A stretch of 61,943 bases of DNA from Natrialba aegyptia DSM 13077 (GTDB lineage Archaea > Halobacteriota > Halobacteria > Halobacteriales > Natrialbaceae), in the NCBI RefSeq assembly GCF_000337535.1, contig NZ_AOIP01000016.1:281911-343853 (forward strand), written 5' to 3'. Below the pieces are notes generated by a model, which did not search any database, was not told where the DNA came from, and worked only from the letters and a program-made list of their open reading frames with translations. Of this stretch, positions 37,801 through 40,245 are shown one piece after another. The translations under genes and the position numbers were made by a program. Numbering within the stretch: position 1 is the stretch's first letter; the number at the start of each line of letters is the position of its first letter.

Positions 37801-38027
37801 ACGGTAGTAGCCGCTGAAAGTCGGTGCATACCTGGTCGCGCGGCCACCGTGCGATCAGTGTGCAAACGGTTCAGTTGTGTTACAGAGGAACCCCCTCGGA
37901 ACCCGACTCACACAGTCCGTCTCCCCCGGAGACGATCGGTCGCGTTGTGACGATCGAGACGCCAGTGCCGACCCGGAAATGGCTATGGAAGGGAAGATTC
38001 TTCCGACTGCCTGCCGGAGTGATAGCC
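37801..38027. other. Upstream region of the broken LX gene
   Basis: In these 227 bases no gene is evident; open frames run through from the LX region without family resemblance. It probably holds the promoter of the LX-pfdA-ftsY segment. Confidence 0.4.
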
Positions 38028-38206
38028 ATGAGTCAGTTTGCGGTCACCGGCCGGTTCACCGTTCGCGACGGCTACGCGGCGGGTGGAACTCGGCTACGGC
38101 CGGAAACGAGGCTGTTGCCCGCGAGTACTCCGAGACTCGTTTCGGCAGCCAGCGTGGACTCACGCGCACGGAAATCGAAGACGACGACTACGACAACGGA
38201 GGTTGA
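38028..38206 (+). pseudogene. rplX: 50S ribosomal protein LX (L18Ae/L20e), apparently frameshifted
   Basis: From ATG 38028 the frame reads MSQFAVTGRFTVRDGYAA, the usual start of archaeal LX, then loses similarity. From about 38105 a different frame reads NEAVAREYSETRFGSQRGLT then RTEIE, the usual second half, ending at TGA 38206. Total length is 179 bases, one short of 60 codons, so a net one-base loss between 38082 and 38104 would explain it. The stop and the GGAGG before pfdA are in the normal place. It is either a sequencing error, a real inactivation, or less likely a programmed frameshift. LX binds the archaeal large subunit and is not always essential. Confidence 0.75.
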
Positions 38207-38212
38207 TGCAGA

Positions 38213-38665
38213 ATGAGCCAACAGCAACTTCAGCAGCTCTCCCAGGAACTGCAAGAGATCGAAGAACAGATCGACGCACTCGAAGCGAACGTCGAAGAAA
38301 TCCAGCAAGAGCAGACCGAAGTCGACGAGGCCATCGACGCGCTCGACACCCTCGAGAGCGACTCGACGGTACAGGTCCCGCTCGGCGGCGGTGCCTATCT
38401 GCGTGCGACCATCGACGATATCGACGAAGCGATCGTCGAACTCGGATCGGACTACGCCGCAGAGTTCGAACAAGACGACGCGGTCGAGGTCCTCGAACGC
38501 AAGAAAGAGACCCTCGACGACCAGATCGACGACCTCAACGACGAGATCGGCGATCTCGAAAGCGAAAGTGACGACCTCGAATCGCAGGCCCAGCAACTCC
38601 AACAGCAGGCGATGCAACAGCAGATGCAGCAACTTGGCGGGCAGGGCCAGGAGCCCGACGAATAG
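38213..38665 (+). CDS. pfdA: Prefoldin subunit alpha
   Basis: The protein has 150 residues: an N-terminal coiled coil (LQQLSQELQEIEEQIDALEA, EEIQQEQTEVDEAIDALDTL), a central beta hairpin (VQVPLGGGAYLRATIDD) and a C-terminal coiled coil ending in Gln-rich sequence. This is the prefoldin alpha layout, a chaperone that holds nascent proteins. The start has GGAGG at 38199 about 10 bp upstream, inside the end of LX. Confidence 0.96.
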   Translation: MSQQQLQQLSQELQEIEEQIDALEANVEEIQQEQTEVDEAIDALDTLESDSTVQVPLGGGAYLRATIDDIDEAIVELGSDYAAEFEQDDAVEVLERKKETLDDQIDDLNDEIGDLESESDDLESQAQQLQQQAMQQQMQQLGGQGQEPDE

Positions 38666-38805: not shown

Positions 38806-40245
38806 ATGTTCGATAACCTGAAGGAGAAACTCGGAAGCTTCCGCAAGGACGCCGAGGAAGCAGCCGAAGAGAACGTGGAGGAAGTCGACGAGACAGCAGC
38901 CGAAGCTGAAGCTGAAGCCGAAGCCGAAGCCGAAGCCGAGGGAGAGCGGGAAGGCGAAGAAGGAGACGAAATCGACCCCGACACTCCCGAAAGCACTGTC
39001 GCAGAGGCTCCCCCCAGCCAGGACGCTGCCGCTCACGCAACGGACGAGCCCGCCACGCCAGACGACGCTGCGACCGCCGCTTCGAGTTCAGCGTCGGACC
39101 CCAGCGACGGTGGCGAGGAGACCCGGGCCGACTCTCGGTCGGAGCAAGCGCCGGCAACCGACGCGACACCCGGCTCTTCGCCGGGTTCCGAATCAGCATC
39201 ACAACACGACAACGAGACGACGACACCGGAAGCTGCCACTGACGCCGACGCTGAACTCGAAGCAGACACTGCGTCGGTAGCCGACGAGACTGAGGCCGGA
39301 GGCGAGGGAGAGGACGAAGACGAAGACGAGGCAGAAGCCGACGACGCCACCAGTACCGGCTTCGGTCGCAAAGCCAAATCCTTCGTCAAGGGCAAGTTCG
39401 TCATCGAAGAAGAGGACCTCGAGGACCCGCTTTACGAACTCGAGATGGCGCTGCTTTCGAGCGACGTCGAGATGGGCGTCGCCGAGGAGATCCTCGACAC
39501 CATCCGCGATGAACTCGTCGGAGAGACGCGTACGTTTACGACTTCGACCGGAGACGTCGTCGAAAACGCGCTTCGAGAGGCGATCCACGACGTGATCAGC
39601 GTCGGTCAGTTCGACTTCGACGAGCACATCGCGGTCGAAGACAAGCCGGTCACGATCGTCTTCACCGGCGTCAACGGCGTCGGGAAGACGACCTCGATCG
39701 CAAAGCTCAGCCGCTACTTCGAGGACCGTGGCTACTCGACGGTGATGGCGAACGGAGACACCTACCGTGCGGGTGCCAACGAGCAGATTCAGGAACACGC
39801 CGACGCGCTCGACACGAAGCTCATCGCCCACGAACAGGGCGGGGACCCAGCCGCGGTGTTGTACGACGCCGTCGAGTACGCCGAAGCCAACGACATCGAT
39901 GTCGTCCTCGGCGATACGGCGGGGCGACTGCACACGAACGAGGGGCTGATGGACCAACTGGAGAAAATCGACCGCGTCGTCGATCCCGACATGACGCTGT
40001 TCGTCGACGAAGCCGTCGCCGGGCAGGACGCGGTCAACCGCGCCCGCGAGTTCAACGACGCGGCCGAAGTCGATGGCGCAATTTTGACGAAGGCGGATGC
40101 GGACTCGAACGGCGGGGCGGCGATTTCGATCGCACACGTGACCGGCAAGCCGATTCTGTTCCTCGGTGTCGGTCAGGGATACGACGATATCGAGCAGTTC
40201 GATCCGGACGAGATGGTCGATCGATTGCTCGAGGAAGACGCGTAG
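38806..40245 (+). CDS. ftsY: Signal recognition particle receptor FtsY
   Basis: The protein has 479 residues. The N-terminal about 190 residues are a very acidic Ala/Glu/Asp/Ser region (AEAEAEAEAEAEGEREGEEG), longer than in most archaeal FtsY. The NG domain follows: TGVNGVGKTTSIAKLSRYF (P-loop), GDTYRAGANEQIQEHA, LGDTAGRLHTNEGLMDQLEK and ILTKADADSNGGAAISI, ending VGQGYDDIEQFDPDEMVDRL. It pairs with SRP54 (encoded at 57.5 kb) to dock ribosomes at the membrane. Confidence 0.97.
   Translation: MFDNLKEKLGSFRKDAEEAAEENVEEVDETAAEAEAEAEAEAEAEGEREGEEGDEIDPDTPESTVAEAPPSQDAAAHATDEPATPDDAATAASSSASDPSDGGEETRADSRSEQAPATDATPGSSPGSESASQHDNETTTPEAATDADAELEADTASVADETEAGGEGEDEDEDEAEADDATSTGFGRKAKSFVKGKFVIEEEDLEDPLYELEMALLSSDVEMGVAEEILDTIRDELVGETRTFTTSTGDVVENALREAIHDVISVGQFDFDEHIAVEDKPVTIVFTGVNGVGKTTSIAKLSRYFEDRGYSTVMANGDTYRAGANEQIQEHADALDTKLIAHEQGGDPAAVLYDAVEYAEANDIDVVLGDTAGRLHTNEGLMDQLEKIDRVVDPDMTLFVDEAVAGQDAVNRAREFNDAAEVDGAILTKADADSNGGAAISIAHVTGKPILFLGVGQGYDDIEQFDPDEMVDRLLEEDA
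38902..38940 (+). repeat. GAAGCY hexamer tract in ftsY
   Basis: Six or more tandem GAAGCT/GAAGCC hexamers encode Glu-Ala pairs in the acidic N-terminal region of FtsY. It is one of several hexamer tracts in this window. Confidence 0.7.

Follow-up and report, generated by a model that had tools for sequence, protein, structure and literature searches.

The window, by which we mean the whole stretch of 61,943 nt from Natrialba aegyptia DSM 13077 that was analysed, contains the remains of a gene for the ribosomal protein LX (eL20/L18Ae), with its start at ATG 38028, followed by intact pfdA and ftsY genes. The features of the locus, all on the forward (+) strand, are the following.

37991–38005, + strand: GGGAAGATTCTTCCG element, 37 nt upstream of the LX start, recognized from its conservation across loci.
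38028–38216, + strand: relic LX ORF of 62 codons, open in the start frame to its end; the TGA at 38214–38216 gives a 4 nt overlap with the pfdA ATG at 38213.
38028–38081, + strand: LX residues 1–18 in the start frame (profile match).
Between 38089 and 38090, + strand: site of a 1 nt deletion (DNA alignment), common to N. taiwanensis and N. asiatica.
38096–38182, + strand: LX residues 24–52 in another frame (profile match), with no visible purifying selection.
38185–38197, + strand: 13 nt insertion that brings the start frame back (DNA alignment).
38198–38203, + strand: GGAGGT in the 3'-terminal part of the relic and 9 nt upstream of the pfdA ATG, a putative Shine–Dalgarno (SD)-like motif judged by its sequence.
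38213–38665, + strand: pfdA, prefoldin subunit alpha, intact (TIGR00293, E = 1.2e-33; pN/pS 0.20 among three Natrialba species).
38806–40245, + strand: ftsY, signal recognition particle receptor, intact (TIGR00064, E = 8.7e-90).

Compared with intact relatives, the LX gene thus carries two indels, -1 nt and +13 nt, with a net change of +12 nt. The preliminary description of this DNA correctly recognized both halves of LX in different frames and a length one base short of 60 codons (179 nt, counted from ATG 38028 through TGA 38206 in the shifted frame), while its net one-base frameshift gives way to the two indels; it also missed the ORF that stays open in the start frame up to the start of pfdA. 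Nor does the gene end at TGA 38206. By homology its final codons are GAG GTT GAT GCA GAA TGA (EVDAE and stop), which have returned to the start frame and line up with the ends of LX in relatives. Both indels are present in the separate assemblies of N. taiwanensis (L109; a close relation of the window genome, with 97% identity in pfdA) and N. asiatica (L110), and a sequencing error is therefore excluded; although the window genome is a draft assembly of 65 contigs, an assembly error within an intact LX gene, as had been proposed, can be set aside with near certainty, given that conserved LX-frame residues are altered too and that other members of the genus lack the gene altogether.

A profile built from 15 intact haloarchaeal LX proteins was searched against the whole genome and matches were considered up to E = 1; in a control, two intact genomes scored E below 1e-32. 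Just two matches were obtained, both at the 38028–38182 locus and in different frames. Joined across the shift, the two pieces reach E = 7e-6 and 25.9 bits against the NCBIfam L18Ae family, under the cut-off of 40, and the best single-frame score at the locus is 16.1 bits against the same cut-off, so that no LX family member is encoded here in one frame. The position, directly before pfdA with a short overlap, is nevertheless that of a former LX gene. Two Pfam families were discarded as detectors: PF01929 (L14e) is the wrong family for LX and PF01775 is insensitive here. The search for a second LX gene that had been suggested earlier found none elsewhere in the genome up to E = 1, in agreement with the family search. 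Since there is no other match and the genome is 99% complete, the organism very probably has no functional LX. This supports the earlier suggestion that the organism lacks a large-subunit protein, as does the absence of an intact LX from all seven genomes of the genus Natrialba. The other four of these have no LX, and in them the pfdA ATG occupies the place, relative to the upstream element, where the LX ATG would otherwise stand.

The alternative offered at the same time, that programmed frameshifting joins both frames into a working LX, draws on the recognizability of the two halves and on an arrangement that is common to three species. Selection on LX across the shift and retention of the gene in close relatives would be expected, but the LX frame of the shifted segment has a pN/pS of 1.49 (three species, few sites), Phe19 and His43, which are invariant in intact LX, are missing from the Natrialba relic, and the remaining species of Natrialba have lost the gene by deletion. 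Because there is no sign of constraint on the middle frame, which encodes LX residues, it is unlikely that LX is still made via recoding, and a programmed frameshift at this site is hardly credible. LX in this Natrialba lineage is a genuine pseudogene.

LX scores above the cut-off in 82 of 125 Natrialbaceae genomes, 122 of which contain pfdA, and in an order-wide sample it is present in 216 of 293 genomes. We compared the pfdA regions of 41 LX-less or LX-eroded Natrialbaceae, 50 further LX-less genomes and 39 intact Natrialbaceae. On a tree derived from pfdA and part of FtsY, which is short and has several weak nodes, the LX-less genomes form 17 separate groups (genome G034 not counted). LX was thus independently lost approximately 17 times on the haloarchaeal tree; about a dozen is the safer number because of the weak nodes. 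Repeated loss is also supported by the group codes (f for family, g for genus): both LX states occur within genera g3, g8 and g40, and in families f5, f6, f10, f14 and f17, which otherwise hold LX, the losses are limited to one genus. At loci L115–L119 (g40) and L127 and L148 (g18) LX is full-length or almost so and eroded, with conserved residues lost; here the gene is apparently in the course of decay. The available part of PMC3353972 reports L18ae/LX in 78 of 87 archaeal genomes and infers several independent losses. Both data sets point to multiple losses, which for the haloarchaea are resolved here to genus level, unlike in that part of the source, where remnants or a coupling to pfdA are not described.

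The manner of loss is restricted. Each region was read without bias by fixing the ATG through its distance from the upstream element and following the ORF to the first stop. In 54 of the 91 genomes without an intact LX this gives a relic or eroded ORF of 12–62 codons that starts 36–37 nt after the element. All 54, and the ORF of the window, stop on the pfdA start with an overlap of 4 or 1 nt. In another 36 genomes LX is cleanly deleted, and in each of these the pfdA ATG is found at the LX start position (+37, or +38 to +40 in three). The one genome without the upstream element, G034, was left unclassified; at its LX-less locus (L241, f11 g29) pfdA lies 26 nt past an aIF6-like ORF and AGGAG precedes the pfdA ATG.

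At least ten independent groups of relics (the tree shows 13) have changed in length, in every case in phase. Because indels in a dead gene should preserve the phase one third of the time, ten or more such groups are very unlikely to arise by chance (for ten, a probability of (1/3)^10, or roughly 2e-5). The relic in the window carries an SD-like motif (GGAGGT) at its 3' end, and a loose criterion for such a motif is satisfied by most relics. A comparison with ATGs in other frames (0 of 43) was discarded as evidence because it is trivial, the phase being set already by the overlap.

In relic and eroded LX loci the element GGGAAGATTCTTCCG or a variant is located 36–37 nt upstream of the first ATG; in loci from which LX has been deleted it is 37 nt (38–40 nt in three) upstream of the pfdA ATG. 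Its exact sequence occurs once in this genome. A role as a genome-wide regulatory motif was rejected, as allowing two mismatches gives one forward and five reverse sites compared with two and one for the reversed control, and no clear family of sites. Judged by its conserved distance, GGGAAGATTCTTCCG is a putative basal promoter of a leaderless mRNA, and the LX–pfdA transcript is predicted to start at or next to the first ATG. The palindromic GGGAAGATTCTTCC (37991–38005) is kept upstream of LX/pfdA throughout the family and could do more than serve as a basal promoter.

Whether the relics are kept for their peptide or for their architecture can be judged from pN/pS. In the codons ahead of the last six, the relic ORFs give 0.89 in g6, 0.80 in g12 and 0.93 in f6 g24, compared with 0.18–0.36 for pfdA in the same genomes. 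Groups with an intact LX range from 0.09 to 0.51, and the eroded full-length LX of g40 is intermediate at 0.52. The relic peptides of g6, g12 and f6 g24 therefore drift almost neutrally, while start, phase and overlap persist. ORFs of 12–13 codons that are nearly invariant in nucleotides, unlike the other relics, precede pfdA at two sets of loci:

f17 g51 (mini-ORF peptide MSTITRGTESEER): L222, L227, L228, L230, L233–L236 and L238.
f14 g32 (mini-ORF peptide MTFVSLNTVIAR): L197, L200–L202, L205 and L210.

In the pN/pS calculation for f17 g51, and only there, L234 was entered from an upstream in-frame ATG; its correct start was used when ORFs were read from the element. These mini-ORFs may carry an additional constraint, either an RNA or a peptide signal. 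Their near-invariance would suit the idea that relics encode new short peptides with a function of their own, for example in pfdA regulation, although it fits a role of the RNA equally well. With near-neutral drift in g6, g12 and f6 g24, and with sequences that are wholly different between clades, we regard such peptides as very unlikely.

A better case can be made for passive decay, in which the ORF persists simply through the short time elapsed and the tendency of GC-rich frames to stay open. The three Natrialba species are closely related, and 40 of 46 intact LX genes are likewise open when shifted by -1, for which reason we rejected an open shifted frame by itself as a sign of selection. 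In the clade of the window the relic is young and little diverged, and since the shifted frame would be open anyway its retention there could be due to chance. What passive decay leaves unexplained is the equal phase, start and overlap in at least ten independent and mostly shrunken relics from several families, and as a general account it is unlikely.

It is instead probable that the dead LX frame is retained as a fore-cistron, in which a leaderless first ATG loads ribosomes that are handed to pfdA by termination–reinitiation at the ATGA overlap. In this model LX and pfdA would share one leaderless mRNA, with ribosomes loading at the first ATG, terminating on the ATGA overlap and reinitiating at pfdA. 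pfdA could then be reached only through an ORF at the 5' end that stops on its ATG, or as the first ORF itself. If the first ATG is indeed leaderless and pfdA is reached by reinitiation, decay of LX would have only two outcomes, and these are the two observed: an ORF with the same start and the right phase, whose stop falls on the pfdA ATG, which in most cases has an SD-like motif and which may encode any peptide, or a precise deletion that places the pfdA ATG at the former position of the LX ATG. Selection would presumably act on the supply of PfdA, and the data suggest that the remnant survives only to pass ribosomes to pfdA.

The window has the two hallmarks of termination–reinitiation, a 4 nt stop/start overlap and the SD-like GGAGGT in the 3'-terminal part of the upstream ORF. 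Leaderless transcripts make up 72% of the total in Haloferax, and the overlapping pairs tested were found to be coupled, with SD motifs in the upstream gene contributing (PMC6728339). A gap of 22 nt abolishes reinitiation in Haloferax (PMC10666635), and for E. coli it is enough to have the final 15 nt of the upstream gene. By analogy, translation of pfdA would depend on translation of the relic. The H. volcanii pairs (PMC6728339, PMC10666635) resemble the present one in their haloarchaeal origin, the ATGA or TGATG overlap and the SD-like motif with which the upstream ORF ends on its 3' side. They are native pairs with working upstream genes, for which coupling was measured, whereas here the upstream gene is dead, often reduced to 12–26 codons, and the architecture alone is kept.

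That short upstream ORFs may merely deliver ribosomes to the next gene is an accepted idea, reviewed in PMC12548453, which cites mycobacterial work (PMC4633059). In contrast to the ORFs considered there, the origin is visible here as the decay of a ribosomal protein gene, repeated, convergent and archaeal. A leaderless promoter and a fore-cistron with an SD motif, from which the downstream gene is translated, were also combined in a leaderless bicistronic design for Corynebacterium glutamicum (PMC10367133); that system is engineered, while the LX–pfdA arrangement is apparently natural. The literature searched, which covered few subscription papers, yielded no description of ribosomal gene remnants kept as a relay. 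The loss of LX itself is ordinary and partly known, and what appears new is the constrained manner of its decay.

A protein of the ribosome has been discarded many times within one archaeal class. On balance we favour the wider reading that ribosomal protein genes were repeatedly and convergently converted to coding-agnostic relay ORFs, with the sole role of loading ribosomes at a leaderless start and handing them on, and that coupling dictates how such a gene may die. The haloarchaea would then offer a natural replicated experiment on translational coupling, in which the peptide is free to change and start, phase and stop are not, and the preservation of a reading frame by coupling alone after the protein is lost becomes directly testable. 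Such a conversion would also account for the unusual LX ORFs, short or frameshifted, that precede pfdA in genomes of haloarchaea.

Further downstream in the window, the N-terminal part of FtsY (38866–39345) is a long run of acidic, repetitive sequence (of the type EAEAEAEAE).
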